A DNA stretch of 64,000 nt from Sclerodactyla briareus (taxonomy: Eukaryota; Echinodermata; Holothuroidea; Dendrochirotida; Sclerodactylidae): contig JAODTK010000577.1 in NCBI GenBank assembly GCA_026419785.1, positions 174,501-238,500 of the forward strand, written 5' to 3'. The notes under the pieces are model-generated. The model had not been told where the DNA came from and ran no database searches. It saw only the letters and a list, made by a program, of their open reading frames with translations. Shown here piece by piece: positions 2,200 through 51,530 of the stretch (the stretch's first letter is position 1; every line of letters begins with the position of its first letter). The translations under genes and the position numbers were made by a program.

Positions 2200-2440
2200 G
2201 ATCCGATATTGGGTACTGAAGTTCACAACCAGCCTAAGCCGATAATCAAATTCTTCAATTACTCGACCCGTTGATACTGATACTTGCAAGGGGTAATTCC
2301 CTCCGAAAACTCTCTGTCAATCTCCTGTCTAGGGTAAGTATCCTCGCAATATAGGTCGGTTTACCCGTCGCCCGTGGACGTAATTTACTCCGCATAGCCC
2401 GGGAGAATGCAATTGATTTGTTTGTTCAATCAGATAGATT
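2200..2440 (+). repeat. Dispersed repeat, copy 1 (partner at 16155-16375)
   Basis: Several blocks match 16155-16375 in the same order and orientation: an ATTGGG(GG)TA block, GGTAATTCC, CGCAATA, GTCGCC followed by GGACGT, and CATAGCCC followed by GAGAATG. The copies are diverged with many indels. The family is unknown, and no terminal repeats or coding potential were found. Confidence 0.55.
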
Positions 2441-3380
2441 GCTAACTATTTAATTCTGAATTTATCAGAGGACAGATGAAACTTCCGTTTGATCGATATT
2501 AGTCTATACTGATTAACTTGAATAGGAAATGTATACTTCAGGTGAAGAGTTAAATATATTACACCAATGAAGATAGAACGTACTGTTATGAGAGCTGTTG
2601 TATTATTTTATCCGGAAGTGCCCGAATTCCCAGGAAACACAACCTTAAACTTGCTCATAATAAACTATTTATTACAATTTAGCTCCTGTATATGAGCGCA
2701 GCGTTCGCGATGTTTGCAAAACTTTCATGAAACTCCGAACAGATTTTGACAGATTTTGACGAAGTTTGCTCGATCATTTTGCGCCTATGACGAAATCTGC
2801 TAGAGAAGCGAGGAAGATATATCGCGAAATATGCAAGCGTGTATTCGTCGTGTATCTCGCAGAATGTTCGCAAGAATGTGCTAGAGGTTCGTCTGATATT
2901 CGTTTCGTGCGCATTTAGGTCGCATGTTCCTCGTGAGCGTGGACTGGACATATTTATTTCGACAACGCTACTTCCAAATTTTGCAAAGATTATGGGAAAC
3001 TACGCAAAACTGCACACGAAAGTTTGCGGTCATTGCTTCGCTGAACATTCGGCGATTTCTTTTCTGACATGCTCCTATATGAAGGAATTAATGAGTAACC
3101 ATCAGACCAAGAACCGCCCTGGTTCAACGAGGGGCTTCGATGCGACGTAGCTCTAAATAATTAGATAAGCGGTTTAGAAATCAATTGATTAATAAATTTA
3201 CAGAGATGTGTGTGAGATGTATAAAGAGATCACTTGAAGAAGCTAAACGTAAATAATACCGAGGCCAAATTTCTAAGTAGAAATGATAGAGATCCCTTCT
3301 ACAATATTAACAACTTCAGCTGCCCGATCTCCACCATCAGTTTGGCACGTAGCGTACAAGAAAAGTTTTCGTCTCACAGA
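2441..3380. other. Unrecognised DNA
   Basis: There are two overlapping short frames on opposite strands (2679-2951 and 2839-3150), and no recognisable domain. A local direct duplication AGATTTTGAC/AGATTTTGAC lies near 2740-2760. No other structure was seen. Confidence 0.45.
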
Positions 3381-3401
3381 CCCCCCCCCCCCCCCCCCCC
3401 C
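3381..3401 (+). repeat. Poly-C tract, 21 nt
   Basis: Uninterrupted run of 21 C. It is one of many poly-C/poly-G tracts in the window. The complementary strand could form quadruplex-like structures. Confidence 0.95.
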
Positions 3402-5151
3402 AGATTGAAAGAGGCGGCACTCCCCGGGCACTATGGGCAGTAAGCAACCTCACTAGAACGACAATGACTTTTTGTTTTTAGGGGTCTTCCGCCGCCCATT
3501 AGAGGAACCTTAAATTGGGTGGTTTGGGTTGGAGGTTGCCGCATCTAGAAAACTTGTGGAAGGCACATGCGTGGGAAAATGGTGCATCCTCGGGCATGCA
3601 TCTTGGTTTTTGGAAACATGAAGGGAATCAGCAAGCACAAATCTTGTCTTTTTCCAGATATGTTTCTTTTCAATTTTTTGTCCGAACTTTCCATGTCTCG
3701 AAAACTGGTTTGCGCTTGTCTCTGCGCCTATATAGTGCCATACGTCAATTGGGTAAACTCTGATAGTGATGTACACGATTCCCTGTCTGCAGTCTTCCGT
3801 TGAATAGCTTCTTCATTATTTTTAAAGAGCGGGCTGGCAAAGGCAAGCTGTTTATTAAACATACGATTAGAAGTAGCATATAAAACTCGAGAACATGGGT
3901 ATGTTGAATATTAGGAAAAACCATTGGTGGGGGGTATGAATCGTGTCCCGACCAAAGTCGCCTCGTGGCCATCCCATATGTTCACTGCACTTGTAGATGA
4001 CACGGAGGAAAAGAAAGCATATTTGCCAGAATCTGACGAATTAATTGCGCATGGGCCTACTGTATATACATGTAACCGGCGGGAAAAAACAGAATACCGC
4101 ATGCGCAGCAGCGCTGAATTTTTGGCATTTTGGCCTCCTCAACTTCAAATTTAGGCAATCTGATTAGGAATATGTATTAGGCCTTTGTGTTATGACCGTA
4201 CTGCACCTTGGATCGTAGGATTATTTTCACCAGTCCCGGCGCCCAAAGATTGGGGTTAATTATTTGATATATGTCCCCCCCAACCCAATATTGGGGGGGA
4301 CATGTCCCCCTCGTCCCCCACCCCATCACCTCGTGATCGCCGCCCATGCGCGTTACAAAGCATGCTGAGGAAAGTATCCGGATTTACAGTCTGTATGAAG
4401 CAACCATTACTAGTATTCAATGCGACTGGTGATTCAGGCCTCTTAAAGCTCGTCAGCCATATATTTACACTAACTCTACTTAATTAATACTAATAATAAC
4501 TATATTAATAATACTAATTATTAATAACATTTCTATCACGCTAAAATGTAAATAAATGTATAGGCAAATAAAATTATAGGGAAACTTGTTCAAGTGGAAT
4601 CAAGCATTGTGACAATATAAAAAGTGGTCAGCTTCAATACTGTACATGGGCACAAAAGAGTTCACAATAAAGTCTCCTACGGGCGACGAGAGAAGAAATT
4701 GGAGTGGTAAGGGTAATTGAAGTAGTGTGAGGTAATTTTGAATTTGACGAATGTAGGAATATGTATAACAGGTTACAAAGTGCATTCCAGAAAAATCGAG
4801 ACAATACTGGTTGATTTGCGGCGACTGCTCTGAGAAATACAGATGATGGATTTATTTTATTCTTGGAGACAAAGAAAGTCAATTAGGTTACGATATATTT
4901 TACGGGCAGGAGGCTGTTTGTTGTAAGCCACAGTTGTGCTGAAGTTGAAGTTAACCGCGACGAAAGTGACTCGTAGGCATAATCTTCATAATTTTCAAGA
5001 AATGTGTTAAAGACCAGACCCTGCAGTACTGCAAAAAATACAGTCCTATCGAACAAACAGACGGGCTGTGATAAAACAAAGAGTAGACAGAAGATAAGGC
5101 AGTATAGGAAAAGGGAGTGAATGAAACGTATTGTGAATTTGCTATTGTTTT
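3402..5151. other. Unrecognised AT-rich DNA
   Basis: No gene recognised. A frame of 76 codons on + (3924-4154) overlaps one of 63 on - (3911-4102), and neither resembles a known family. An AT-rich stretch around 4485-4530 is made of TAATAA-like repeats. The 4271-4303 inverted repeat is listed separately. Confidence 0.4.
4271..4303. repeat. Perfect inverted repeat with C7/G7 arms
   Basis: Arms ATGTCCCCCCCAA (4271-4283) and TTGGGGGGGACAT (4291-4303) are perfectly complementary over 13 bp with a 7-nt loop. Further CATGTCCCCC repeats follow directly. Similar GTCCCCC-rich pieces occur near 39371-39408, so this may be the end of a dispersed repeat family. Confidence 0.8.
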
Positions 5152-5426
5152 TGTGTTCGTTTGTTTCTCATAATATTTCATCAGAGACTTTTCAAGGACA
5201 ACCTGATCCTGAAGAGCCACATGTTCAGGGAGATTGGACGATTGAGATCCCTGCAAACTCCTGATTCGCCCTCTTGTTTAGTATCTGCAAAGACCTGGGC
5301 ATTCCAACCAATAAAAAGGACTAGAGCAGAGTACAATCACCACATTGTCCTCCATAACCAGTGTAGTAGATCTGTTCGCGACTCTGGTTCATGTTTTGCG
5401 TCTGTGGGATGTGGAGATGAAAGAAA

Positions 5427-5693
5427 TCAGGATGCGATAGCTAATTCCTGTCCCGTTTCTGAGCCGGCTCTTAATATCCAGAAGATGGGAATTGTATCAT
5501 CTGGGCAGCAGTTTCCGTTCAGTACAAGCACCGGGTACTTACCACCACTGAGAAGAAAGGACAGGAAGGCACTAACATCAAGAACGTACCGACGCGATGG
5601 TCTGCAGTTTGATTTTGTGTCCAACAGACTCCAGCAAGCGGATTTATTTAAAACACGAAAAAAAAACAAAACGCAAACACACAAGACAAACAA
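5427..5693 (-). other. Candidate conserved exon/ORF in the duplicated unit
   Basis: On the minus strand both copies of the unit preserve a frame containing VLNGNCCPDDTIPIFWIL followed by GSETG (copy 2 lies in 8903-9424). Several differences between the copies here fall at synonymous third positions. Just upstream both copies also keep a donor-like GTGGTAAGT or GTGGTGAGT (near 5540-5550 and 9207-9215). If that donor is used, the conserved frame downstream of it would be intronic. I recognise no protein family. The block also folds into the hairpin at 5478-5504, so conservation could reflect RNA structure or simply recent duplication. Confidence 0.22.
5478..5504 (-). repeat. Small hairpin conserved in both unit copies
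   Basis: CCAGAAGAT (5478-5486) pairs with ATCATCTGG (5496-5504) as two short stems separated by one mismatch, around a 9-nt loop. The copy at 9146-9172 keeps both arms and changes only the loop. No function is known. Confidence 0.5.
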
Positions 5694-6112
5694 AACAAAA
5701 ACACTCAGTTTCGCGTGAAGACCTAATCAGTTGGGAGTGTCCGATTATTTCTGGCAACTTCCAACTATCGACCTCACAGTTCACAAAGCAATATCACCTT
5801 GATTGAACTTTGGGTATCGAGCAGTCACTTAGCTTGAGTATAAATTTCCTCAGGAGTCATCTGGTACTCAGAATACTCGGGGTCGTTCTTATCAGGAATC
5901 ACTAATTGAATCACTTTGTTATCTTTTCAACATTGTACTCTCATTTTTACCCTACGAATTACTTCTGGGCATCAAAATAATCCGCCTCAGGAATCGCTCG
6001 ATCTAATGTGACGTGGAGACTGCCAACAAATGGCTCAAGTAGCCGCAACCTGTAAGAAGTACTACCTCGATATACGGGTGCCGTAAGCAGATATATCATA
6101 GCTTCAGTGAGA

Positions 6113-6143
6113 ACTGGAGCGTATTTACTCCGTACGCTCCAGT
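6113..6143. repeat. 11-bp perfect stem, partly conserved in copy 2
   Basis: ACTGGAGCGTA (6113-6123) and TACGCTCCAGT (6133-6143) are perfect inverted repeats with a 9-nt loop. In copy 2 (9770-9800) the structure remains with one arm mismatch (ACTGGATCGTA). Confidence 0.65.
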
Positions 6144-6194
6144 GAGGTGTATTTTCATATTCCAGCCAATCCAATTACTATATATTTTGTACGT

Positions 6195-6210
6195 CCCCCC
6201 CCCCCCCCCC
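6195..6210 (+). repeat. Poly-C tract, 16 nt
   Basis: Run of 16 C inside copy 1 of the duplicated unit. It is absent at the matching place in copy 2, so the tract arose or was lost after duplication. Confidence 0.9.
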
Positions 6211-8665
6211 ACCCAGTATCATCTGTCACATCATCATTTGGAAGTAAGTGCCGACATTGAACGATATAGTCATCGTATATATATTTCGGTTTGTATCAGA
6301 AAACATTCATGAAGTTAGAAAACGTTGAATCTTTGAGCGTATTCGGGAGATTCGGAATGAACTGCCCGGGGAGGTTGTCACTACAACCCCACTCACATAT
6401 TCAAGAGTCGTCTAGACTGCTAGAGAGCAGTAGCATTTTCAAGAGTTGAAAAAATCCCATCTAGGTAAATCCAAATGAGAAACTGCGCGTTTTCTGTCGT
6501 GAAGATGGTATTAGACCGCATAACTATGTATACATGTTGACCTGTTACGTGTAGTGTGGTAGGTGCTTATTCCAAGGTGATAGATCACGTGCCATGCATG
6601 AGGTAACTTTCTAAAACCATATCATAATCATTTTTAGTATGTACTGAGCTGCGTTTTGTCCTTGCTCGGGAAAATGTTCGTGCAATGTAGTTGACAGTTC
6701 GGGTTTTGCAGACCATTTTCACTCGTCTTTTGCACTCCACTGCGCGCTGTTGTTTGGATATCAGTGAGTGGTCCATTACAAAATACCGTATATTTAACGA
6801 ACAAGATTGGGTTTTCCATTTTTGTATAACTATTCAACATAATAGATCCGTTCCTGTTTCTAACATTAATGGAATCGGCAAAAAGGACCCAATTGTAATT
6901 AATTTCATAATTGTTATTCTCTGAATGTTAGACTGATATCCTACCATTACTTTAACCATAATCCAAAGTGGTTTTAACTGAATCCACTGGCTTCGCTCTG
7001 ATAAACAATGGCTCGCTTAGTTCACGCGCAGTCGGATACAGGAATTGTTTATATGGAATCACTCCATAATGTAACATCTGATTCATGGAATAGAAATCCA
7101 TTAAAATAGAGTACCCAACGATACAACCTTGATGGGTTCGGCTACTTGCAGGCCTTCTTACTTTCGATTAGTTATACATCTAAACTGTACATCGCGTGCA
7201 GTACAAATATAATACTGCGTTATGCGTAGTAACGCAATCCTCAAAATATCATTTGGATGTACCATATACAGAGTCAATCTAGAACAGATGACAACTGGTT
7301 TTCTGTATATATTATTCCACCTGCATACCAATCTTCGACTGATGAATAATAGGATTAATATGGCATTCTACATCGCTTGGAAAAGTAGATATATATAATA
7401 TACATGCCAATCACGCATTGCTTCTCGCCTAATCAACCGAACGTATACTGTATATGCACGAAAGTAATCAACGAGACTGCGTTGGGCGTCCAGCCGTCTT
7501 TTTTTCTACTAGCTTGTTACACCCATTTACATGGCAGTGTCGGTTCATTGCACTCTGGACATTTTGAAAATATACATCGTTACCACTGCACATTAATTCA
7601 AATGAATTAGCATAAAAATTGCTCACAGGAGGAAGAGGTTGGAGTTGATCGAGATACTTGGATTAATTAAACAGACAATTGTGAAGCCCTTCAACCATGT
7701 AGAGAATGCTAGAACATCAACAATTACATATTAGTTCTGGATACCGAGCTGATACAATAGAATTTAAGATGCCCAACATTGCAATTTGATGAATATAATT
7801 CGAACTGGAGGAGGATACGAAAAAAACACCGAAGAACATTAGTAAAATTATATTCTGCCAGGGTAGTTGGTTAGCTGTAAACACCGAACAAGCCTAGATA
7901 GATCTTTTTCGCATGTCCTCCATCATTCCTGTATCATACCCAGCATAGATGTGCTGATCCGTTGGTTGTGTAATTTGATTCAGAAATGGTCGTGAAACAG
8001 AATAGAGATGGGATGTGTGTTTTTTTAGGTTTAATTTGCTGAATAACCTAATATCTCTTATACAAGAGACGGGGTTAAAAAAAAAAAAACACGTCTTCAG
8101 AGGTTAACGTGACAATTCAGGCAGATGTGGTTTGTGCTGACTAAAAAGGGTGTATAGAAGACAACATAGTGTCATCTCGTCTATTTTCCGCTAACTTACA
8201 GTGTCCATCACACTCTCACGGAAGATATACTTGACTATGTATAATTCTATTTTAGTAAGCTATTTTAGTATTTAGTGGAAGATGCTGATGAGTACCATAA
8301 TGATAGGAGCGTCACTATGATGGTCAGTATAGCCCATATCTGTTGCCAGGAATTCGCTTACAGTTACTACGAGATAGCGTAATATGACTTCATCTCATAT
8401 AATGGTTAGTAGAGGAAAATACAACTGAGGCATCCCTGATGATTCACGGAAGAGGTGAACGCACCTATTTTCGAAGACGATTGATGACACAGTACTTGGG
8501 CGTGGGTTACGCATGTCGAACTATCAAACATGTAAGAAGAGTTTTCGTCGGGTATTTTAAGCGGTGCGCGCTTATTTTGGCAATAACAGCGTTGAGGGCT
8601 GAGATTGTCTAACACTGGACCACTTCAAGCGAAGCTAACAGTAGACCATACGGGACACAAATTAC

Positions 8666-35990: not shown

Positions 35991-36660
35991 TTTAAATAAG
36001 TTACAAAAAGTTAAACAAGAGGGCAAACCCTGAGTTGCAGGATCTCATCGGCAAATGTGGAATATTCATTTGTTTATCCTTGCTCCATTTGACAGTTGCA
36101 AATGGACAAAATTTATCAAAATATGTCTGAGAACAGCCATTTTCCCCAAAAAAATTATACATATTCATGGGAATTTCAGTAAATTTCCAGCCTGATTGCT
36201 GGGAAACCCTTTGTTTTGATACTTTGTACCTCCTTCTGAAATTGGAATCATTCGTCCTCCCAATCTCTAAATATACCAAAAACTGAACAGATATTGTTTT
36301 TTTTTTTTTTGTTCAGAAATCTCAAATTTGGCCCAAATATCACCTTTTCGTATTACTTGACATTTGGTAATTTTGGGCTGATTGCTGGGAAAAGTTGTGT
36401 ATTGTGCCTTTTACGATGCTACAAAGTTTGAAATCGTTCAGCAATTGGAATGGGCGGATATCTTGAAAAAAGTGAAAAACCTGGAAATGAGGAATTGCCC
36501 CAAAATTTGTCCTTTTGCCTCCTGAATTCCCGAATTCTGATAGTTTCCGTCTAATTTGAGAGCAATTATGTTCAGTGACTATTCAAGCGTGTGCGAAATT
36601 TCATTTTGTTCAGACACTCCAAAATGGAGATATTTGCGAAAAACCATCAAAAATCTGACG
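35991..36660. repeat. Internally repeated non-coding DNA
   Basis: GCTGATTGCTGGGAAA-type text occurs twice (about 36190 and 36378), each followed ~40 bases later by a TTTGAAATCGTTC/TCTGAAATTGGAATC block. This suggests two diverged units of ~190 bp. A T12 run lies near 36297. Confidence 0.45.
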
Positions 36661-36672
36661 GACACGCAAACG

Positions 36673-36702
36673 ACACACCACACACACACCACACACACAC
36701 CA

Positions 36703-36733
<31 letters not shown>
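36673..36733 (+). repeat. CA microsatellite
   Basis: (CA)n with CCACA interruptions. It creates the false threonine/histidine-rich frames across it. Confidence 0.97.
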
Positions 36734-36848
36734 CGCAACCAAAAACCGGACACTTTCGACCAAGTGCACCTCATTGCCGGAACCCGGCTCCCTGGGTACC
36801 CTCACCAATGGATACCCCTCAGTGAGATAGTACCTAACCACCACCATG

Positions 36849-36877
36849 GTTACCATAGCAACTGTTGCTATGGCAAC
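36849..36877. promoter_or_regulatory. Two adjacent RFX X-box-like sites
   Basis: GTTACCATAGCAAC (36849-36862) and GTTGCTATGGCAAC (36864-36877) each fit the RFX X-box consensus GTHNYYATRRNAAC at every position and are separated by one base. The two also form an imperfect inverted repeat. RFX factors drive ciliary genes, but no such gene is visible nearby. Confidence 0.45.
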
Positions 36878-37249
36878 CAGCAACAGATAAATATAGGTCG
36901 CTGAATGGCCAAAGGGAATACAGTATCTCATATGGGCCCTTCGGACCGATGAGATAATAGAGAGGAAGTATTGTGGTGATAACATCTACAACTGTGCGAG
37001 TGTTTTATTCTGGAATTAGCTATGGGGGTGGGTTTTTTTTTTGTTGCGAGAAATTAGTTGCTGTCAATAACACACAGTGCCTAAGTTAGAAGAGACAAAT
37101 TACCATCGAAAGCAGCGATAACACGAAGATTGTTATTAGCCTGAGCAGAAATAATAAAACAGCACCTTGAACTACACTCAATAACAATAAATTATTCACT
37201 AGCAGCAGCAGCAATACTTGGATCTTGTTCCGTTGTGATCTTTATGCCC

Positions 37250-37365
37250 TACCTATCACAAACTTCTAACTAACCTAAAACCAACCAAAAAAATATCTGA
37301 TAAACTGTTAATATTAACTAAATTTACCATCCTACCGTGATAATGACGGGATTGGGTGTATGTCC
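37250..37365 (+). repeat. Left ~118-bp direct repeat flanking the L1/Tx1-type element
   Basis: Runs from CTATCACAAACTTCTAAC to GGTGTATGTCC and recurs at 48724-48842 with only scattered differences. It ends exactly where the retrotransposon reading frame starts. The simplest reading is a very long target-site duplication. The alternative is insertion into a locally repeated target. Confidence 0.8.
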
Positions 37366-38090
37366 CTTTAGTTGTTAATTCCCTCAATTATGCCTTTGAG
37401 CACAGTTCCCTTTCTGACGAACAAGGGAGGGCCATTATTTCTCTGATCCCTAAGTCTTCAAAGAATTTGAATTCTCTAGATAACTGGAGGCCCATTGCAA
37501 TACTGAATAACGATTATAAGATTGGAGCCAAATGTGTTAGCTAATCGCCTCAAACTGGTTTTGAATAATGCCATCAGTCCGGAGCAATCCGGTTTTCTCA
37601 AGGGCCGTTATATTATTTGGTGAAAGCATCAGACTCGTATTAGACACTATTACCTATTATAAACATAATGATGTTAATGGAGTCTTAATTTTCCTGACTT
37701 TGAAAAAGCTTTTGATTGTTGTTTAGACTGAATTTTGTGTTTCACTCGCTCACTCATTTTGCCTTTGGTCCAGATTTAATTAAGTGGATAATAACGTATT
37801 ACTCAAATTCAACTGCCTGCTCACCTAACAATGGTAATTATTTCTAGATTATTTCCCAATTACTCGGGGAGTTCGCCAAGGCGGTCCTCTCAGCCCTTAT
37901 TGGTCATTTATGTTCTGCAGTTTTTTTTAATTTGGTAAAGTTAAATAAGAATATTATTGGAATTCGCATTCCAAATAGAGAGTTGAAGATTACTCAGTAC
38001 GCGGACGCTATTGTCCTTTTCTGCGATGGTTCTAAGCACTCTATCAACTCAATTTTGAAAGTTATACACAGTTTCGGTGGGGTCTCAGGT
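37366..38090 (+). pseudogene. L1/Tx1-type reverse transcriptase, part 1 (5'-truncated)
   Basis: Starts inside the reverse transcriptase: LNYAFEHSSLSDEQGRAIISL (about 37383), then NWRPIAILNNDYKIGAKC (about 37483), PEQSGFLKGRYI (about 37580), a DFEKAFD-like piece (F-L-T-L-K-K-A-F-D, about 37692-37720) and GVRQGGPLSP (about 37872). The catalytic YADD reads YADA (37998-38009), so one aspartate is lost. SINSILKVIHSFGGVSGLK leads up to the foldback insertion. Frameshifts are frequent. The missing upstream part includes the endonuclease and ORF1. Confidence 0.85.
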
Positions 38091-38324
38091 TTAAAGATGG
38101 ATTGTCGTCTGCTAGCGTCCAGCAAACAAGCGACGGCGAATTTTGCATGACGTCACGGCAAATATCGTAATGTGCAGCACAACTCGGTAAATCGGATATT
38201 AAAAGTATGTGATTCCGATATACCGAGTTGTGCTGCCCACATTTACGGATTAATTGTCGTGACGTCATGCAAAATTCGCCGTCGCTTGTTCGCTGGACGC
38301 TAGCAGACTACAATCCATCTTTAA
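38091..38324. mobile_element. TTAA-flanked 226-bp foldback element (MITE-like)
   Basis: TTAA at 38091-38094 and 38321-38324 flank an almost perfect inverted repeat. The left arm 38095-38195 starts AGATGGATTGT, the right arm is 38215-38320, and the loop is only 19 nt. It has no coding capacity. It interrupts the retrotransposon frame within SGL(K)VN. TTAA duplications point to piggyBac, Kolobok or Sola3-type transposition, and the family cannot be chosen by eye. Each arm contains a perfect CRE palindrome TGACGTCA (38148-38155 and 38260-38267). Confidence 0.92.
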
Positions 38325-38569
38325 GGGTTAACTGTGCCTAAATCTTATATTTTGTTCTTTGGGTTAAATTTTCCGTGAGGGAAATTCCTTTCCATATTTC
38401 CAGTTACCAGTTTCCCATCAACACGGGACCCATCCGCTACTTGTGAATTGTCATTGGAAATAATGCTGACGACTTTTTCCGTCTTAAATACTTGCCTAAA
38501 CTTTCAAGATTGAAAAATATTCTTTGCCTCTGGTCTATGCGTGATTCATTGACATTAGGAAAAATAACC
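38325..38569 (+). pseudogene. L1/Tx1-type reverse transcriptase, part 2
   Basis: Continuation between the two TTAA insertions: KSYILFFGLNFS (about 38336), FPVTSFPINTGPIRYL (about 38396), YLPKLSRLKNILCLWSMRDSLTLGKITL (about 38488-38572). The last piece is the conserved WS.R.LTL.GKI motif of this clade. The frame continues across the 8.7-kb insertion into IKFFAISQL. Confidence 0.85.
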
Positions 38570-38573
38570 TTAA

Positions 38574-38609
38574 AGCGACACTCTCGCCAAAATAGGGGGC
38601 GCGCTTCAT
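38574..38609 (+). repeat. Left terminal inverted repeat plus subterminal motif
   Basis: AGCGACACTCTCGCC followed by GGGGGCGCGCTTCAT. Paired with 47269-47312 on the other strand. Confidence 0.88.
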
Positions 38610-39199
38610 GTTTTCCCAGACCCGTATTCAATTGTTTTAGAGTAGCGCCCTCTCGTCGTGAGCGCTATCCCTATGGCACGTGACTGCCATAGTCACTCAA
38701 CCATAGACATATATACTACGTCTGTGCACTCAACATACACCGTACCGGTGACTATTATTACTATACTCGCCGTGTTTACTGCATGTTCGCTACGCTGTAG
38801 CCACGTAACATACATACTAGTGATGGTATTGACACATAGCCAACGCGGACTGGATCGACGTATATCGCCCGGATACAGTTCGGGCCCAAGGCAAAGTGGC
38901 CTCAATCACTGCTGGAACATGAGTGTTGTGTGAAAATGTATTCATCGAGTCAAAATGGCAGAAATAGACATGCGGCACCTTCAGTGTCTCAATTTTATTC
39001 CTTAAGTTAATGAGAAATTGCCATTCTCCCTTCCGAAAAAGGTGTAACAATCAGTTTTCGGCCATGGTGGATGTACCCGCCAAACTAGAAATTACTGTAA
39101 ATAAACAGAACAATTGCCTCCCAAGGGATTTTTTCACAACATTCTCCAAATTGGCAATTTATGAACCACATTTAGGCTGATATAGGCATTTTATATTTT

Positions 39200-40060
39200 C
39201 AAAAGACACAAAAATGACATTTGTGAGGCATAAAATCCAATGTTACATGCCATGGAGCGTCATTCCTGAAGGAGGGTGGGGGGGGGGGCGACTTTCCCCC
39301 CCCCCCCCAAATTTGAGGATGCTACCTTTGGACTTCATTTTTACACAGTATTTTTTTGGCGGCGAGGTGTATGTCCCCCTCACTTTGCAGTACACGTCCC
39401 CCCCCCCCACTCTGGAAGATGGATTGACGCCTAGGTAGCAACTAGTCAGTTCTCGTGGGCAGATTTGAACTGACAAATATGTCAGTTTTAGCTTGCAATC
39501 AGTTGATCAAGTGACTACTCTGGAGAATGTGACTAATTCAACAGTACATCATCAAAAACCCAATTTCCAATGGAATTGCTATTGCTATTGGTTTGTCACA
39601 TTTGCATTCAGTAAATATGCGAAAATGCTATTTCAGGAAATGAATATGAATGAAAGGACATTTCTTTGCAAAACTGCTCTTATATGTAGGTGACTAGTGT
39701 GACAGGCTCCAATCCAGGAAGAATCCAATCAAGTGTCCCATCAGAATTGGCAATCAGTGCATATCTAGCATGTTTTGCTGTCGGCAGGAACTACATACAA
39801 GTAGACCTTGTAATACAGACATCCCAATGTTAGACAATAGTCAGCAGTGGGAAAGTTGACTACAATGCAGGAAGATTGGACACAAGTGAAACTTGCCTTT
39901 CCTACGGTGCATCCATTGGTCGAAACTGTGTCACCGTCAGGGTGGACACAAGAATTTTATTTTGGGGGAGAAATCCATCGAGATTTTTTTGTTTTTTTGG
40001 GGGGGGGGGGATCGTGACAAAAGTGTTGGGGGGGGGGGACTTAGAAATGTCAGCCCACTT
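39200..40060. repeat. G/C-run-rich segment inside the 8.7-kb element
   Basis: Runs of G11 (39278-39288), C13 (39296-39308), C11 (39398-39408), G12 (39999-40010) and G11 (40028-40038), with GTATGTCCCCC/GTACACGTCCCCC motifs like those near 4271-4310. The first G and C runs can pair as an inverted repeat. The frames here are artefacts of the runs. Confidence 0.7.
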
Positions 40061-40766
40061 AAAACCCAGTTTTTATGAACAAATGTATGCAGGTCTGTTT
40101 CTCAGAATTATTAAACAACAGCACGACAGAAGAAATGCATGATGTTTGATTGAAAAAAAAAAAGGTGAATGAGCCTATATAGGTCCTTCAATCCTACCCC
40201 CACCTCTTTCTTTGAAATTCACACTCTTGCACCCCCTCCCCCCACCACATCCCACTCTATTGAAATTTCTGTGACGGATCATTGCACACTGACCCAACCA
40301 GATTTAAGCCTATGGTCAGCGCGAGATCCTTGAAACAATACTGTAATGTCGAGGAGGGATTCTAGGTTTGTCCCTCGCTCCAAAATGAGTGCCATAGCAT
40401 ATTCACTCATCTCGAGCGATGAGCCAATCTCACAAACCAGTTTAACCCCTGGAATCTGTTATTGACTCCCCCCCCAAAAAAAAAAAGCAAGTTAGCAAGA
40501 ATCCCAACACATACAAAATTAGTTTGAATAGTTTTAGATTTAGCTGAGCCTGAGCCCTAGGGACCAAAATCGGAAACAATCACCACAACCGGAACCAAAA
40601 AAAAAATGGGAGAGCCTTGACTAGCTTGCAGGACTCAACACAATATAGTAACCTACTCATCTGCAATAATGAGTGACAGCGCCAGTTGTACCAGAAGAAA
40701 TACTAAGGTCCCCCAATAGCACATGGTAGAGAGGATGCATGGAGATTGAAGCGGAAAGAGTCCTTC

Positions 40767-40856
40767 GGCAGGATTGCCAACTCGGGATTTGAACTCAAAA
40801 CTCAGAAACAGTAGTTCAGAGCTCTTACGGACTGAGCTAAATCTGATCTCTAAACC
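40767..40856 (-). repeat. tRNA-derived SINE or tRNA pseudogene remnant
   Basis: Read on the minus strand: TTTAGCTCAGTCCGTAAGAGC (A-box, with a perfect GCTC/GAGC D-stem), then GAGTTCAAATCCCGAG (B-box) at tRNA-like spacing. The anticodon and acceptor stems do not form properly, so it is not a functional tRNA. It lies inside the 8.7-kb element. Confidence 0.5.
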
Positions 40857-41039
40857 AGAAAGCCAAAAGGCCCCCTAGCGATTTCTTGACTTTATACAAT
40901 TATTAGCAGACACAAGGACAGATGGGAGAGTGTACCAGATCATTTTTGGAACACATAATGTCTGACAAATTTTCATTTGTTTTACCAAACAATAGGTAAT
41001 AGCGGTTCCTATAATCTTGATAAGATAGCTAAACATAAT

Positions 41040-41700
41040 TTCAAGTTTCAGACGTGACTTCTGGTGACCTCAAAAACAATATGGTCCATGTCCTCATCGT
41101 GGGACACACATACAAGTATGAGCAATCGTCATCCAGATGGGTTTTCACCGATCAGACAACCATTCGGACTTATCATGTTCAAATGAAGTTCTCAGACTGA
41201 CCTCTGACCTGACCCCAAAACCATAGGGTGATGTACTTTTTTCCATGGGGAACACACACTACAAGTATGAGATCCATCCATCAGGGTGGGGTCGAGGTTA
41301 TCGGGTTCACAAGCCGAAAACTTGGGCCACCCAAATTATTGAATTTTCACAAAAATTTCCCTTTTTTTACCAAAATTCACACCCCCCGACCTACACCAAA
41401 AAGGATAGGTTTTATGTATACTCCCCATTAGAAAGCCCCACAACAAATTGAACCGATCCGACCAACCATTCTGGACATATCGCGTTCAGAAGGTTTCTCA
41501 GTCTTTGACCACTGTTACCTCAGATGACCTCGACCTGACCCCAAAAAACAATAGGTTCATGTAATCATTCATGGGAAAACATAAATACAAGTATGGCTTC
41601 ATTGAGCCAGGTGGGGTCGAGTAATTGTGTTCACAAGCCGCCGAGTCACACAACATACACCACACACACACCAATTTGGCAGGACTGCATAGATTCCTCG
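41040..41700 (-). repeat. GGTCA-rich ~310-bp tandem repeat, inverted copy
   Basis: About two units of the family found at 62560-63715, here in reverse orientation. On the minus strand they carry GTGAACACG-like, CTCGACCCCACC, ATGGATGAAGCTCATACTTG-like and AGGTCAGAGGTCA blocks. The last gives a DR1 arrangement near 41197-41212. The right end merges into a CACACAC stretch near 41660. Confidence 0.8.
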
Positions 41701-41778
41701 GACTACGTCGAGGAATAATCAGTCATGGGACACTTGTAAACAAGACACCTGATGGATGAGTTGTCATGTAGGCAGCAT

Positions 41779-41792
41779 GGGGGGGGGGGGGG
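41779..41792 (+). repeat. Poly-G tract, 14 nt
   Basis: Run of 14 G inside the 8.7-kb element. Confidence 0.9.
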
Positions 41793-42240
41793 ATTTTGGC
41801 CAACTTGTTTGGGGGATGGTTAGACTATCCAACGATCACGGTCATCACCTGGCCGGTGGTATGCGTGCTGCAGTTTTCCCTGATGATAGCAGATGCATCA
41901 TCCTGCCAAGGCCATCATTTTGATGGACCGACTCCATAGCTGCTGTCATCTGCAGGTGGGCTCGTGAGTCACGGGTAATGCTGCAATAACAGCATTGATT
42001 CCAGGACACTAAAATATGAAAATAAAAATTGAATGTGATGTTCTGTTGCCAAACAGAATATATTACACCTTCAAACTACTGCAGCAATGCTCATGCATTA
42101 ATATAGCATGAAAAATAGTGAATGAAATAGGAGTTGAATGATATGGAGGATGAGTATGAATCATTAGCCACAGTGTCATTTCAAGACAATCTTGTACGAT
42201 CCCAACCATCAGGAAATTAAACGGTAATAACCAGGTTGAA

Positions 42241-42357
42241 TTCAGAAAACCATGTCATTATAAACGGTTGAATAAACCTCGGGCTGACCTCAGAAAACAT
42301 GTCATTATAAAACAGTTTATAAACCACGGGACTGATCTCAGAAAAACATGTTATTCC
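42241..42357 (+). repeat. Minisatellite, ~50-bp unit, 2.5 copies
   Basis: TCAGAAAA(C)CATGTCATTATAAA is followed by a variable part ending in CGGG(C/A)CTGA; three starts occur at 42242, 42290 and 42338. It lies inside the 8.7-kb element. Confidence 0.85.
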
Positions 42358-45300
42358 CTCTTTGTGACGAATTACAGAATTCAAAGGACTCGGAAAGTAA
42401 GATGGGCCACCTCAACATGTAGATTTCCAGATGCAGCGGTCTCTCAAGTGGAGGATGGAATGGAACTGAGCACTACAGGGGACAGGGGCCATGTTAGTTC
42501 AGTGGAAGTTGCAACTTCCTGGTGTTGAGGAGGAACCTATTGGCAGGGGGAAATGAAAGAAGAGCGGATTGTTAAAATGTTATCAGTCGCAAAATACAAT
42601 CTGTCATAATGTTGTCTTATGACAAGAGTTTCTAGTATGGTATTGTACCTCCAACCATTTCAACAGCACCCCCAATCACCTCCTGCTTTCACCTGAAGCC
42701 ATTCATGAGAATCCAAAAGAACAGCACGGGTTTGTGAATATGCAAACTATGAATACTCACCAAATATAGAAACCCAGCACCCACCCCTTGCTGGTCTTGC
42801 ACAAGCTGAGATTCATGACGGGACACAACTCAGCACTGACAAACCCCTCGCCCTTCTTATTGTCCTAGTGTCAGCTAAAGTTTATTGGCTTCAAGTTTTC
42901 ATCTGTCGACAATAAGTTCTGGCAAAATGAGAACGGCGATGGGGTTGACAGTTCAGAGTTTTGTTGCAAGGAGCTTGGCTTGTGCAAGGGGGGGGTGCAA
43001 GGTTCCTAGATTTGGCGTGGTGTGAATTGAGTGTGTGATTAAGTAGACCTTACTGGAGGTGAAACAATGTGTTCATAAACAGAATAGTCCCGTCATGAAG
43101 AATCCTGCGAAAATGTTAACCCTACTACTCTTCCTGGGTTTGGAATACCTTTGTATACAAAAATACTTCACGTGATGAAGTGAATCTGCCAAACATTATT
43201 CATTCATTGGAGTGAAATTTAAATAAAATACGGTTTTCTAGAAGGATTTATAATGTGGGATCTCTACATGTATACATACATACAGTATAGTACACATAGT
43301 GCCAAAAAATAAAATAAATATCACCATTTTCATCTTACCCCAGCCTACAGATAGGTGGCTATGGTAATCATGCAGAACTAATTCTAATGTCCACAATGTA
43401 TTCAAATGGCTTGAGTACACCACAATGACATTGACAGATCATGGATGAAAAGTGGCACAGTGATTGCCACAAAAAGGGCAATCGGGATGTTAAACCAAAT
43501 AACATAATGCTCAACAATTTTGGTCCATTCATGCTAGGCCTAAGGTTTGAATCAGCTGATCATGAAAGTTTGGTCATATTATCGCTATTATCGCGAACAT
43601 ACAGGGTGATCACAGAGTTGCAGATCCACGCCATAGGACACTTCTCCCCCACATATTCAATTGAAACATCATGGTATAGTTGGTCAGTATCTAGTAGTTA
43701 TCATTGCAATGGTCCATATTTCAGGAAATTTGTGCAAGATCATTTTTGGGGTTCAATTTGGGCCATTTGGTAAAAGTATACAAAAGGCCAACCTCCTTCT
43801 AGAGTTAAAAATCGATGATCAGGACAGTATGCTTATTATTATCGAATGCTAATGCTTCATACAGGGTTTTCGGGATTTGAGGTCAAAAGTCATCCTAGGG
43901 GTCATCAACTCATCATTGCAAATTGCTTCATTAATGTCTATGAGAATACTGCTTCTTATCCTACAGATCGAATTCGATGATCATGAGAATTGACCACTTG
44001 AATGTAATACCATTGACCAATGTTACAGCAGTAATGGGTGTCCTGAAATTCCAGGCTGAGGTCAACCGAGGGGTCACTTTCAGCCATTTGGTTGAATGGT
44101 CAGCGTTTTTAGCTGTGGGATGCACTCAGGTGAAACTTTGTGGGTGGAGAAGCAATGCACTGGCTAGGCTGAGTTTACTTTTTTTTTAGCATAGTGTGAT
44201 CAGATTTTCGTGATCCAATTACTTACCCCATTTTCTATCCACTGCAGTCTCCCCATTGAAATCTCTGTGAGGTGGTTTTGTTTCACATTAAGTGGTACTC
44301 ATTGGAGCTATCCGGGCGCGCCCTGCTTGTAGAGGGCCGGACTGTGTTTACTGTGGGTCTGCAGCAATGAGGGTTGGATTACAGGACATTGGGGCTGAGA
44401 GGGGGTACAGGCATTCTGTGGCAAGATCTGTCATCAACCTTGGTGTTGGCTAGACTTCCCATTGTGGACCCAGTGTGTTTCCACTGGCCACTGCTACAGG
44501 CCTAGAGTTTGCTGGATACACAAGTTTTGTTGGGTACATGTAGCTAATACACAGGCCTAAGAATGAGTTAGTTGGGTAACTTTGTGCTGGGCACTGTGGG
44601 CAATTGGGCAATATTAGGCTAATATGGTAGACATGTTCCAAACAATTCCAAGGTTATGACAGCTGTCAGTGAAGGTCAATTAATGTGAACAAACAATAAA
44701 TGTGGATTGGTGAAGAACATGCAGTGTATTCGCACACAGGAATTTGCCGTTCGCAGCTATCAAGATGTTTGGACTTGCGAATGTTACTCTCACAATATAT
44801 GTCGATGATCATGAAAATTGGTCTTATAATCATTGATCAATGGTCCATGATTTTGAGCTCGAAGGTCACTAGTTTAAAATTCCTGCATTTTGTTGACGGT
44901 CAGACAGCATTTAGCCAGCTTAATACTCCGATGGTCCAATTGACAATACTGTTTACAATGGTACCTGTCCATGCAGGGTCTCCATGAATTTCAAAATCAA
45001 ACTGTCAAAGGTATCTTGTGTTCAAATTCCCCAATCATTCCAACAATCAAGCGACCTTGACTCCACAGAATTGTATAAAAGGGGAAGCACTCGCATATCA
45101 TTGAGTACTGTTGTGTTTATGAATTTGGAGTTCATCTATTTCATTTTTAATGATCTGCAAACTGCAAATTGTACACAATAATTCACACTGCCCTTCTGCA
45201 AATACCGTTGAGCTACTGTACCATTCATTTCCTGGTGTAATAAAACACCATTCACGTAACCCTCCATTTTAATTTGAGCACTGTGTCCGGGCTACTGTAA

Positions 45301-46630
45301 TGTAAACCATGAACCTATTTGCACAAACATTTCTGAAAATCGAATACTCACCGATATTGGCTGCAATTGTTTCTCCTTGTGGCATGTGTCTGCGCTGGTA
45401 AAGGATCGGTTGTGTTCCCACTTCCTGAACGTCATAGTTGGGGAACATTTAGAAAAATGCATACATGGTACAAAGAATCAATTAGCCCTGAGTAGACCTA
45501 TCTAGAATAATGTGTTTCATGAATGGATTCATAGTACATCTTTACTGTAGTTTAGCCTCAATATGGGATGCTTGGTATACTGTAAGTTTTTGTGGGGGCT
45601 CACCAGGATCACCAGGCAGTTGTAATTTTGAAATACAAATTTGTGAAATGATGCAGGCAAATGAGTAAACCCTAATTGATAGGATCCATTGTTTGATCTT
45701 CGAAGTCACAATCACCTCAAGTCCTCAAGTTACCCAAGTGTCTCAAAAGATCCATGGTTTACATTACAATACATAAAAAAGGGGAATACTTTATGCGTGT
45801 AACGTACTGTAGACGGAAGCTGGTGCGTTCGCCCATTCCATTCTCCAAACCTCCTATACGCACAGTTGCATTCTGGATTATTTTGCAATGTTTGCATGTT
45901 TACTAGAAAAGTCTGAGTGCAAATTGTTCGAACTATCATTTTTGCCAAACTTGCCTTCCGTATTAAATAGCCTAATTGCTAGCCTAGTTGATGTATTAAG
46001 AAAACGTTAGACGCGCCGAAAAAACAACCTATGTAGTTAGAAAAAAGCCAAATTGAATCAGAATTGCTGTGATTGTCATGTGAGGTAAGTTTTTGGAAAT
46101 AAACTGTCAGCATTTGGGATCATTACCCAAGTTTTAGAGAATTTTTAGTCCAATTTTATTTCCCATGAGTAAACTTAATGTAGCAAAGTGTGGTTAGCCC
46201 TATGAAATGAATTTCGCATTGCAATGATAGATTGGAACTTGCCTCAGGCATAGGCCTATTTGTAAAACATTTTTCAAAGCATGATTCTACTATTGTGGTA
46301 AACTACTAAGTTCTCATTAGGCTATAGGCTAGTACATTTTCTGTACATATTAGCAACAAAATTGATTCCAAGAGAGGCATGGCTGGGCCCACATATGGTT
46401 TGGATGGGAATGCAGAGCACAAGAACCAGTAGCTAACTTTCTACTTCAGAGATTTTACAGCTAAACTGATGGCTCCTTTTCTGCACCTTGCCTTGAATTG
46501 CATGTTACTGAAAAAGCTTGCTAGGCTTCTCACCATTGAAATGTGTTTTCTAACGTTAGGACTAAGGCAATGGTCGAGCTCCTGTGCTAGGCCTAATAAA
46601 CATGTTGCAAATCAGTTTAGGCTAGTGCCT
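42358..46630. other. Interior of the 8.7-kb element, unrecognised
   Basis: No ORF longer than 110 codons and no transposase motif recognised. The 43480-45180 part has scattered GAGGTCA/GGGGTCA and GATCATGA blocks and may be an old relative of the GGTCA repeats. The 45950-46660 part is rich in TAGGCCTA-type text, unlike the surrounding sequence, and could be captured host DNA. Confidence 0.4.
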
Positions 46631-46639
46631 GGGCTCACC

Positions 46640-47000
46640 TTACTCCTTAGCCTTGTGTGATCCGCAAATAGAGGTTCCGAGAAATCAGCATGCGTATCGC
46701 CCATTCGCCCTTGTCATGATACTCGGCGAAAGGTCCTCCTTCACACTGCCAGTTCGACGTTGCAGCGATTCTCAAGTTATATTTTTCGTTGCATCGGCTT
46801 GTTTCTTGTGGCTGCCGCTTTGTTGCGCTTTTCACGTCTGGTCCTCAGCAACGGCTGCGGCTCCGCCGTAAAACCAGGCGATGTATTCTCTCTCCTTACC
46901 GGACCATCCCCTTCGCTACTGCCTGAGTGCCTTCAGCAAAGCTGCATGCTATGACTGATAATTGTGTGAAACTCACAGTAATAGATACAGCTAGAGCCGA
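46640..47000 (-). other. CpG-richer segment with a possible splice donor
   Basis: Locally GC- and CpG-rich compared with its neighbours. On the minus strand a frame of ~60 codons (46835-46647) ends near GGAGTAAG|GTGAGC (about 46637), a good donor match. This could be a promoter/first exon captured in the element or an unrecognised transposase exon. No domain is recognisable. Confidence 0.2.
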
Positions 47001-47268
47001 TGCTAGGCTACCAGACAGTAAGCGACAACAATATAGCTCCAAGGTGACCAGTGTTGTTCAATAGTAGCTGATGGAGCCACAGACATATACGTCTATGCAT
47101 GGAGCGGAGCCAGTGGTCGTCATCGGGCGAAAAACGTTCGACAACACACCCTGAAAGTTCCGCTATCCCATCGTAACGAATGCATACCAAATTTGGGAGA
47201 GCCTATGCAACGAGGGATTCCCTGTCTGGAGGTTTTGGCCGTCCTACAAAACCTCCCGAAAATTGAAA

Positions 47269-47312
47269 ATAAAGCACGCCCCCAAGTCAACAGTGTTGCC
47301 GCGAGTGTCGCT
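47269..47312 (-). repeat. Right terminal inverted repeat plus subterminal motif
   Basis: On the minus strand AGCGACACTCGCGGC begins at 47312, and GGGGGCGTGCTTTAT at 47283. Confidence 0.88.
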
Positions 47313-48723
47313 TTAATAAAATTCTTTGCTATTTCCCAGTTAGTCTACGTATTCACCGTTCTGCCTAATTCGCCCGATACTTCCATCTCAGACCTAAACA
47401 CGATTTGTGTTCATTTCGTCTGGAATAATAAGCCTGATAAATCAGACGCTTGACATTAATCAACACTAAAATGAATAGAGGGCTAGATATGATTGATGTG
47501 GTTTCATTTGTGGAAGGAAGGCTTGAAAGTAGCTGGGTCAAACGTTATGTTGATAACAGAGTTTCTGATTGGAAGTATTTCTTCGATTTTTATCTCAACT
47601 CCTTTGGTAAGCAGTTCCTTTTCAAGTGCAGCTTTGCGAATGTTACAGTTCAAATGTTGCTAATTCTTTTTGCAGGGAAGTATGTGAGAGATTCATTCAA
47701 CTTATATACTTTAGTAATGAGATTATCTTTAATAACGCCCATATTCTCATTGATGGAAAAAAGAATATATTATAAGAATCTGTTGATAATGATGTTATTT
47801 ACGTGAAGTGTTTTTTCGACACCAATGGGAGTGTTCTCTCCTGCAATACATTCATTCAACACTATTTGGAATCAAGTTCCCCTTCACACTTTATTATGGT
47901 AAATCAAGCAATTCTCGGTTTTGGGAGACGAATTTGACGCACTCTGGCAACAGCCCTTGAGTCTACAGAACTATCACTGTTGTGACCGCAATAATAAAAT
48001 TTCTAGATTGATTTATCATAAGATTATCGGAAAAAAACAGTCGTCCTCCAACTTGCATCCATTACTGGAACTCATGTGCGTTTAACGTGGACCTTGTTCG
48101 GGACAAAATATTTGCTTTACCTCATCTTGCCGTCCGAGAGGCTGCATTCAGGTATTTTCAGATTCGTTTCCTTCATAAATTCTGGGCCGTTAACTCCCGT
48201 CTTTTTAGAATGGGCTATGTTGGTTCACCCACTTGCTCCTTTTGCAATGTGAAGGATGAAACTACTATACTTTGCTCTTCGATTAATCACACATTATGGA
48301 ACTACTGGGAAGAAGTAGTACTCCTTTGCATCAGAAATGAGTACGCTCCTTCAAAAAATGATATATGCTTCGGCTATTTTATTGAGCCCAAGCACCCGAT
48401 AAACTATTTCTCTTGCATTCTGAATATTACATTTTGGTTGTAGAAATAACAACGTTATTCATGACGCTCATGAATTTCATCATAAATTTCATTTCAGTTT
48501 AGATGTGGAATATTTGATCTCTAAAAGAAGCAAGACTTTGTATAAACGTGCCAGGTTCTTCGAGTTGTTCCTGTAGTTGCTTCTTAAAAGTTGGAAGATA
48601 CAGACATATTTATTTATTTATTTCCATTGTTGCCATTCAAAAAGCCTGGGAATGATTACTGCCTTGTTCGTTTACAATCTTGAAATGAAGAAAAATAAAA
48701 TTGTAGAGAATTTTTCTCCATTA
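47313..48723 (+). pseudogene. L1/Tx1-type retrotransposon, part 3 (C-terminal region and 3' end)
   Basis: Continues the frame of 38569: IKFFAISQLVYVFTVLPNSP, then HFVWNNKPDK (about 47417-47444), INTKMNRGLDMIDVVSF (about 47458) and SSWVKRYVDNR..DWKYFFD (about 47530-47590). All are conserved in the C-terminal domain of L1/Tx1-type ORF2. A zinc-knuckle-like CSFCNVKDET with a downstream C and H lies near 48234-48290. Frames shift repeatedly. The 3' end (AAATGAAGAAAAATAAAATTG near 48690) precedes the right 118-bp repeat. Confidence 0.85.
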
Positions 48724-48842
48724 CTGCCTATCACAAACTTCTAACTAACCTTAAACCAATTAAACAATATCTGATAAAGTTGTTAATATTAACTAAACAC
48801 CATCCTACCGGGATTATGACGGGGGGAATTAGGTGTATGTCC
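48724..48842 (+). repeat. Right ~118-bp direct repeat flanking the L1/Tx1-type element
   Basis: Second copy of 37250-37365, in the same orientation, ending GGTGTATGTCC. Differences include TTAAACCAATT for AAAACCAACC and CACCATCCTACCGG for TACCATCCTACCGT. Confidence 0.8.
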
Positions 48843-51530
48843 ATAAATGATGTGACTGATGGTTCACCGCAGACCGTAATTGGTGCCATCGCTTTTCTTG
48901 AACTGATTGGACGAAACTCATTTCTGTCTAGTGGGGCTATTCAGAGGTTTAATTAAGATCTAGGCACTTCACACAATGTGAATGCCAGTTACCATAGGAA
49001 CTCATGATATCCTCTCCGTTGTGTGGCGGACTGCTTTCACTCTACTCCCAATCCGAATTCGCGGGCTGACAGTGAAATGCAGTCTCATCACCGATTTTCC
49101 CTGAGCCATGTTTACACGGACTGACGAATATTCAGAATATTCCGGCATGCTGTCCCTCGGACCATGAGATTATGAAGACAAATGATTGACTCAACCATTA
49201 ATAATTGAGAGATGTTTAGTTTATTATTCTTCCTGCCTCTCTATCATTGATGTATAAAATGAATACCATGCAATCATCATGTCGATTGAGGCATATACAG
49301 GGATTTCTACCTGTAAAACTCATATATGTAAACTAGCTACGAAGTAGTTGATGGTTCGCCATTTACATGGTATATCGTGTGGGGGGTATCTTGAGTTCCG
49401 ACCTCGAACCCCCCCCCCCTGACCAACTCATCGGTACGCGGCCTCCTGACGTGTAATACCGAAGAACTAAACATTTTTTTCTAAAACGTCTGTTAGTTAT
49501 CGGTAACTAAACAGAATCTGCCGAAGCTCGTTTACCCGGGATGACGCCTAACGGATACTTTAGGTCGCGGTAAATTGAATCAGGCATTGCGTTTTCTAAA
49601 CACATACCTCATTATCAGCATCTCAGATTCCAGGCACGATGGCTTGTTGATATATGTGATTGCCTCAGAGACAGAGTACGTTACCAGCCCTAGGGGGTTT
49701 CCATAAGCAGAAATGTTTTTATCAGATCTTCTTTTACAACGTTCCATTAAGCCTTCAACAAGTTCTGGCATTGTGTCCCGCTCATTTCCCCGCAAAACAT
49801 TTACGAGAATATACGGGACTCTATAACAAAATAGTGCAAACTGTTGTCCCCTAGTGTCTCCTAATTTTATTGGTACTCAGTCATATGGAGGGGCAATAGT
49901 TGCTGAAGATGGTATAAATCGACGATCTAAATTCACGATTCACGATTCTTCCAGTGTGTGCTTTCGTTGGTTTTATGAATAGGGACTTAATATTCTACGG
50001 TGTGAAAGCCTCATCTTGCTGTTATGTATTGGATGTTAAACCTGATACCAAAGTAGTACCAGGCAAGGTACCCAGGCTGACTCTTTCTTTAATTTAATTC
50101 TACTCAGACAGCAAGGCAGTTATCATCACAAATTTTAGACATTAGAAAAGGGAATTCAGGTATATTGACCGTCACATGTATAATGTCTTATTCCGTGTCT
50201 CAGTGAAAGTTCTAAATGAGCAAGAACACATAGATACATACACCCACATACACACACGCCAACACAGATGTCTGGATACATTGACTCCATGCACTACCCG
50301 GTGCTATCGGAGGTTAATAATTTCATTTAGTACGGAGATTCGGGTACTAATCAATAACGGCATATATTAAGTGCCGCGAGACATTGATTTTCAGGAAGAA
50401 GTGATTTGTTGGTGAGAAGAGGAGGTGAAAAAACAAAGTCATATAATTAGTGATTGGTGAATTAGGACCGCCCTTGAGTATTCTAGAGTAGAAGGGAACA
50501 ATTCAATAGAAAATAACAGGTCCGCCAAGCGTCGGAGACTTTTCAATGCAACGATTTCAGAAGTAAATCATACGTTACCTATTATATGCTACATTAGTTC
50601 AGTAAGGGAAATGACCAGATCTTCTGCACAAATTATCCGCCCCTTTCCAAAAAGTGTTATGCAAAGCTGACTATAAGAGGCCAGTGGACTATAAATCAAT
50701 CATTCACCCTAGGTAAATATCCAGACGTTCTTTATACCTGTACATGGTTTTGAACGGGTTATCAAGGAACATACGCTTTCTTACAAATATAGGCTCATGT
50801 CGTTATAATATAATATTATAACATAACATAATTATTCAGGCTATGGTCGCATAAAATTTCACCAATATGCACATTCTTAACGTTTTCTGGGGCAAAAGAG
50901 GACCAATTTAAATCGTTCAGATTCAATTTATAAGCTCCGAAATGCCGTTTCCGGCAATCTGAGAGAAACCCATTTTCTTCAGAATTGGATGTACGCTCCG
51001 CGCCAACCATTGATTGTGCTCCGATTAGATACTCATTACCAACGTATCCCGACCCCATATTTCAAAAAGGATGTGCGTTACCGCGGGAGAATCCTACGGA
51101 AAACTCAATTCTGTGTAAGTCAGTGATATTTCTACACTCTTAGATAATACCAAACACTTATCGTTACTCTTCTCTTGATTACACTATAGTGCGTAGGTTC
51201 TCATTCAACACTTGTTTCTCGATAACGCAGTATCGAAAAGAATAACATAACGAAACGTGTGTCTTGCAGTAAACAGCCGCTATAATATACTAACATGAAG
51301 AATAAACGAATTGATCTAATTTCCTCTGAGAGAAACCGGAGATATGTTAGAGGTTCGTGAACGCTCTTAAAAAATAAAGTTGAGTTTGTGAGCAAAAAAT
51401 GAGTTCCACCTGGATGGTTAAAATTAATAATACCCACGAGAGAGTTGGTGCACTCCTTTTCAGCGATAGCTTTATGATGAGTTGTTAGGTTATTGACGGC
51501 GCCCCCTTCTTGGCCATCATCCTAGCTGAA
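48843..51530. other. Unrecognised DNA
   Basis: No gene recognised. Includes the inverted G-run repeat at 49395-49443. Short frames such as 50816-51058 minus have no recognisable domain. Confidence 0.4.
49395..49443 (-). repeat. G-run-bearing dispersed repeat, inverted partner of 33991-34038
   Basis: On the minus strand: GGCCGCGTACC, G11, then GGTCGGAAC. Same block order as 33991-34038. Confidence 0.6.

Follow-up and report, generated by a model that had tools for sequence, protein, structure and literature searches.

Kolobok transposons insert at TTAA and have ends of the form 5'-RR...YY-3', a feature by which PMC9587614 separates them from piggyBac, whose ends are given as CC[C/T]T in PMC2872659. 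The ten full-length Xenopus Koloboks in Table 5 of PMC6004289 have AG ends, are 6,763-13,907 bp long and contain about 2.3 kb of coding sequence, and subfamily A1 as described in that paper starts with AGCGAT. The DNA analyzed here is a stretch of 64,000 nucleotides (the window) from the sea cucumber Sclerodactyla briareus (assembly GCA_026419785.1, contig JAODTK010000577.1, positions 174,501-238,500 of the forward strand), in which a dead long interspersed nuclear element (LINE) is interrupted by 8.7 kb of DNA flanked by TTAA. This insertion is a real mobile DNA element. It belongs to an apparently dead family, old and low in copy number, whose members are probably large non-autonomous DNA transposons of the Kolobok type that moved by cut-and-paste.

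The element proper occupies positions 38574-47312 of the window (+ strand; 8,739 bp) between two copies of the TTAA target site (38570-38573 and 47313-47316); no coding capacity was found in it, and its interior is colinear with copies at other loci. Its ends read AGCGACACTC...GAGTGTCGCT, so that both start AGCGAC (AG...CT), and they form terminal inverted repeats (TIRs) at 38574-38590 (+ strand, starting AGCGACACTC) and 47296-47312 (starting AGCGACACTC on the - strand). The first 15 bp inside each TTAA (AGCGACACT...) agree at 13 positions, and the 21-nt arms 38570-38590 and 47296-47316 were found in a repeat search to have 90% complementarity. Both ends share the subterminal motif GGGGGCGYGCTTYAT, which is represented on the left by GGGGGCGCGCTTCAT (38595-38609, + strand) and on the right by the reverse complement of GGGGGCGTGCTTTAT (47269-47283, - strand). 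An earlier note on this DNA had claimed the flanking TTAA, the 13 matching positions and the common subterminal motif, all of which were confirmed when rechecked. When pairs among the 271 TTAA sites of the window were scanned at spacings of 200-15,000 bp, two reached 13 of 15, the 8.7-kb element and a small palindromic element at 38091-38324, and in five Markov-shuffled windows no pair did so.

The interrupted LINE, which we take from a motif to be of the L1/Tx1-like class, lies on both sides of the insertion. Its 5' side (37734-38569, + strand) holds the palindromic insertion at 38091-38324 and a match to RVT_1 at 37734-38099 (E 9.9e-6, below Pfam's cut-off); the frame resumes at 47317-47453 (+ strand; IKFFAISQLVYVFTVLPNSPD...WNNKPDK), where a comparison of three frames with Pfam gave no match. 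With the element and one TTAA removed, the LINE frame runs unbroken over the join (...RDSLTLGKITL|IKFFAISQLVYVFTVLPNSPD...). The genome was searched with the joined peptide of 70 residues, in which the join falls between residues 28 and 29. Among the 67 matches listed, two are the window's own halves and 50 of the other 65 cross the join uninterrupted, each in one match that starts no later than residue 20 and ends no earlier than residue 40. One of these relatives, C2670:51119-51328, spans all 70 residues at 51% identity with no stop. The uninterrupted relatives give a paralogous empty site for the insertion, and the restoration of the LINE reading frame that the earlier note had proposed therefore stands.

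Copies of the element were sought in 319 Mb of the host genome, and all copy counts are lower bounds. The left end gave at least 11 matching rows and the right end at least 14, in each case including the window, and a 1-kb interior query gave at least 41. Long stretches are present at 15 loci: C573 (the window), C2125, C1839, C3011, C2966 (twice), C2651, C3161, C2972, C2314, C22, C2629, C1468, C1353 and C264. With the addition of C2821, C2187 and C1321, recognized from their ends, the family has at least 18 loci. All 17 regions fetched around the ends contain homologous DNA, two of them in short stretches only, and 13 copies can be chained in the order of the window copy, with 2,379 to 7,827 of 8,750 positions aligned, the aligned pieces being bounded by the fetched extent and by contig ends. 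Copies that retain both ends include C1353, 8.6 kb long and flanked by TTAA on either side, C1468, which is 12.6 kb long and contains insertions, and the shorter C3011 (6.0 kb) and C2972 (4.8 kb). Eighteen printed ends of other copies, nine left and nine right, were read by eye. TTAA is intact at 13, changed at one base at four and lost at one, and AG follows the TTAA position at 15; at the left end of C3011 the TTAA is intact and extra bases separate it from the TIR. The subterminal motif is clearly recognizable, with changes, at 16 of these ends (eight of nine on each side), partial at the left end of C1353 and absent from the right end of C2314. Because the element has defined ends, TTAA on both sides, an insertion into a LINE and colinear copies elsewhere, it must have moved as a unit. 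The genome search with the two ends and the comparison of interiors that the earlier note had suggested thus yielded copies, paralogous empty sites and an interior shared in the window's order.

Few if any of the other 16 pieces match the outermost flanks of the copies. The flank next to the C3161 copy is matched by up to five pieces and that beside C2821 by up to four. Where an unaligned stretch is longer than 1.5 kb, most of its length has a counterpart in no other piece or in just one, and shorter unaligned gaps are common to several copies. The possibility that the longer copies contain an extra shared interior was rejected, since their long private parts are not widely shared.

The element resembles the XKol elements of Xenopus as described in PMC6004289: it has TTAA on both sides, AG...CT ends and short imperfect TIRs, its length lies in their range of 6.8-13.9 kb, and its AGCGAC start can be set beside the AGCGAT of subfamily A1. 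The frog elements differ in having a transposase gene with THAP, DDE and H2CH motifs (PMC6004289), whereas here neither a transposase gene nor an autonomous partner was found. T2-MITEs, miniature inverted-repeat transposable elements (MITEs) that are presumed in PMC6004289 to be non-autonomous Xenopus Koloboks, also have a TTAA target and AG ends. However, their ends read AGGRR rather than AGCGA, and they are short and numerous, whereas the present family is about 9 kb long and occupies at least 18 loci. KolobokP, which according to PMC9587614 is known from seven animal phyla, has similar RR/YY ends, but its terminal direct repeats of about 450 or 660 bp are not seen here; in a self-BLAST of the element the only direct repeat is internal (129 columns within 41191-41640), and none joins the ends. 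PiggyBac shares the TTAA target site and short TIRs but differs in its terminal CC[C/T]T (PMC2872659). Of the properties that define Kolobok, the TTAA duplication is present in the window and at C1353, and RR...YY termini are found as AG at most of the copy ends. The TTAA target, the AG...CT ends and the size of the element all agree with Kolobok, of which it would be a member that lacks a transposase of its own. TTAA elements that are non-autonomous and have Kolobok-type ends are a known kind, and the large non-coding interior is the sole uncommon trait here. The earlier note had regarded the length as unusual on the ground that autonomous TTAA elements are usually a few kb; this is wrong for the Kolobok kind, in which the lengths given in Table 5 of PMC6004289 make 8.7 kb ordinary.

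The lack of a visible transposase stated in the earlier note was borne out by the checks of coding capacity. Across the copies and the DNA around them, the longest open stretch measures 217 aa; it lies in a private insertion and presumably carries a LINE-like motif. The longest span of the consensus that is open when frame shifts are tolerated showed no excess over shuffled sequences, 47, 122, 159 and 73 of 200 shuffles reaching it at minimum piece lengths of 40, 50, 60 and 80 aa. When eight of the 24 open reading frames (ORFs) of the consensus and two from copies were compared with Pfam, only a sub-threshold match to SPAR (E 0.052) was obtained. A Pfam scan of the window copy in six frames, with stops replaced by X, gave no match at E 0.05, and three large unaligned stretches (C22, C2821 and C1468) gave none at E 0.01. 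As a control, the same X-at-stop procedure detected the RVT_1 match on one side of the decayed LINE; Pfam missed the LINE-like motif in one unaligned stretch, so some decayed proteins are lost. A DDD/E transposase, the mark of an autonomous Kolobok, was found neither in the window copy nor in the consensus ORFs examined.

Transposase families were searched for in the genome by a procedure that scores the best candidates only. PF20700, which we take to represent Kolobok-like transposases, gave four pieces at two places, one of them at C2515 with an open stretch of 157 aa; PF13843 (piggyBac) gave three decayed pieces, and THAP (PF05485) three places. None of these, by the coordinates listed, is close to any of the 59 terminus-like sites discussed below or shares a contig with the 18 loci. 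No good terminal repeat pair was seen in the 3 kb around the PF20700 piece at C2515, and the genome's PF20700 fragment, compared by tblastn with 68 other sequences and the consensus, gave nothing significant (best E 0.86 and 0.96).

Several observations count against a non-autonomous Kolobok family or complicate it. Searches via PF13843, PF20700, PF05485 and one fragment as a protein query detected no autonomous relative with these ends, such as the earlier note had hoped for, and the superfamily assignment is consequently based on the target site and the terminal bases; Sola3, or a TTAA transposon of an unknown kind, might have these in common with the element. The longest ORF of the piecewise consensus, 190 aa, is just above the 95th percentile of the shuffles (175; mean 135, maximum 244). 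Homology stops after element position 4348 in C22 and 2932 in C2821, and C3011 and C2972 are without the middle right part; these large missing parts in the four copies may be read as deletions or insertions. The 14-bp terminus, with one mismatch allowed, is not enriched genome-wide (59 sites versus 92 for the reversed control), and of the 11 sites that match it exactly, nine are in this family. Lastly, the tree of the copies is not a perfect star, as the clade of C3161, C2821, C2966a and C2972 is supported at 0.999.

The element may instead be the remnant of a once-autonomous family whose transposase gene, which may have contained introns, lay in the interior and has decayed too far for Pfam to recognize it. 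We consider this unlikely. The PF20700 pieces at two places would, if that family is Kolobok-like as we assume, be evidence that the genome once had Kolobok-type transposases, the longest consensus ORF exceeds the 95th percentile of the shuffles by a small margin, and the LINE-like insert overlooked by Pfam illustrates that decayed proteins can be missed; the length of 8.7 kb is also that of the full-length Xenopus Koloboks with their coding sequence of about 2.3 kb (PMC6004289). However, no protein family was recognized in the frames of the window copy, the eight of 24 consensus ORFs or the three unaligned stretches, the frame-switching open span of the consensus is without excess, and the PF20700 fragment has no significant match to the 68 other sequences or the consensus. 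Sola3 also uses TTAA, as does piggyBac, and decayed piggyBac transposase pieces are present in this genome, so that a non-autonomous element of one of these two kinds was considered in place of Kolobok; it is rather improbable, and for piggyBac it conflicts with ends that start AG and not CC[C/T]T.

A cargo-bearing or composite element, as proposed in the earlier note, would consist of two unrelated short TTAA elements or of a captured host segment that moved once. The segment 42908-43015 does occur alone elsewhere, but other copies have the two ends and the interior together and in the same order, and no obvious source locus is present among the 41 listed interior rows, in which the long ones are family loci or C2125, C2629 and C264 (ends not fetched) and the rest are short repeat matches. 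This origin is therefore very improbable. Both termini belong to one family and not to two, and the repeats taken as cargo in the earlier note (SINE-like, for short interspersed nuclear element, GGTCA and minisatellite) do not set the window copy apart, since interior parts including GGTCA-like and minisatellite stretches are found colinearly elsewhere. A composite transposon in the strict sense, with two complete elements bracketing unrelated DNA, was rejected because the interior is common to other copies in the same order, and an assembly break between 38600 and 47300 was rejected too, given that copies on other contigs are colinear.

If the element is a non-autonomous Kolobok, a Kolobok-type DDD/E transposase would have been supplied in trans, would have bound the short bipartite ends (the TIR and the subterminal GGGGGCGYGCTTYAT), and would have excised the element and inserted it at TTAA. 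Its gene would already have been missing from the copy that was amplified. The spread would have occurred mostly in one burst from closely related sources, after which the source of transposase may have been lost or decayed beyond recognition, and the copies would since have drifted and gained nested insertions, deletions and tandem duplications. The median Kimura two-parameter distance over 86 comparable copy pairs in anchored alignments is 0.19, and the tree is close to a star, with internal branches of 0.002-0.016 and tips of 0.05-0.16; the tip of the window copy is short (0.05), possibly because the alignments were anchored on the window. From the consensus the copies differ by 87-193 substitutions per kb. 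MAFFT alignments of 14 copies gave about 119 substitutions and 24 indels per kb in columns with at least 60% agreement, with one of 15 alignment windows dropped for having fewer than six rows. The near-star tree and this divergence may be read as mostly one burst followed by decay. An odd mutation spectrum in the BLAST alignments was dismissed as largely an alignment effect, transversions and indels being exaggerated relative to MAFFT; transversions are frequent among the decayed copies in the MAFFT alignments also. A further idea is that the family of about 9 kb was already protein-free at amplification, its interior having been exchanged for non-coding DNA while the length stayed that of an autonomous Kolobok, and that its spread was helped by this length or by an RNA or structural feature of the interior; this is unlikely.

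Three repeat regions were located in the interior, all on the + strand: units rich in GGTCA/TGACC at 41168-41667, with a direct repeat (41191-41316 and 41519-41640); a 48-bp tandem repeat of 2.4 copies at 42242-42355; and an inverted-repeat region at 42760-43015. The first two fall within alignments to other copies and were thus part of the element before its spread. The segment 42908-43015, within the inverted-repeat region, has short matches at other genomic sites too, and it probably represents an earlier insertion that has since travelled with the family. Searches with Rfam (36000-50000) and ARAGORN (bacterial code) gave no RNA family and no tRNA.

Some loci show irregular arrangements of ends. 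The left end of C2821 is present twice, 452 bp apart, with the identical 12 bases before both, which looks like a local tandem duplication of flank and end. In C2314 and C1839 the right end occurs twice with the same orientation, at spacings of about 2.1 and 2.4 kb, as if duplicated; C2972 likewise has two right ends, about 7 kb apart. At C2187 a right-end match at 179688 (82% over about 86 bases) and a left end at 224644, in matching orientation, are separated by 45 kb and represent either two broken copies or one very large copy. C2142, which contains the exact 14-mer, was discarded as a family copy because it has no BLAST match to the element's end. C884 was likewise discarded as a second family with the same terminus, as only its first 24 bases resemble the left end. 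The sequence that follows these 24 bases is a high-copy repeat (C884:116461-116761; 366 first-look candidates, the best 40 scored), the other listed copies of which mostly start at about query position 25, and the site reads as a broken family end with an insertion.

The palindromic element at 38091-38324, in the same LINE, is a near-perfect palindromic MITE of 226 bp between two TTAA, with AG...CT ends. It is high-copy (586 first-look candidates, the best 40 scored); of the 43 rows listed, two of which are the window's own arms, 38 have 91-97% identity and 39 start at TTAA. Its abundance indicates that movement of the TTAA/AG type was common in this genome. Judged from the best-scoring rows only, this MITE looks more recent than the 8.7-kb family.

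No paper was recognized as describing the family, in a literature search that left the repeat libraries Repbase and Dfam outside its scope and so does not show absence from print. No new mechanism is implied by these results. What appeared to be a puzzling carrier without a transposase is resolved as belonging to a small transposon family that is apparently dead, and annotators gain the ends, the length and the likely superfamily of a family that is easily missed because it is long, non-coding and low-copy.

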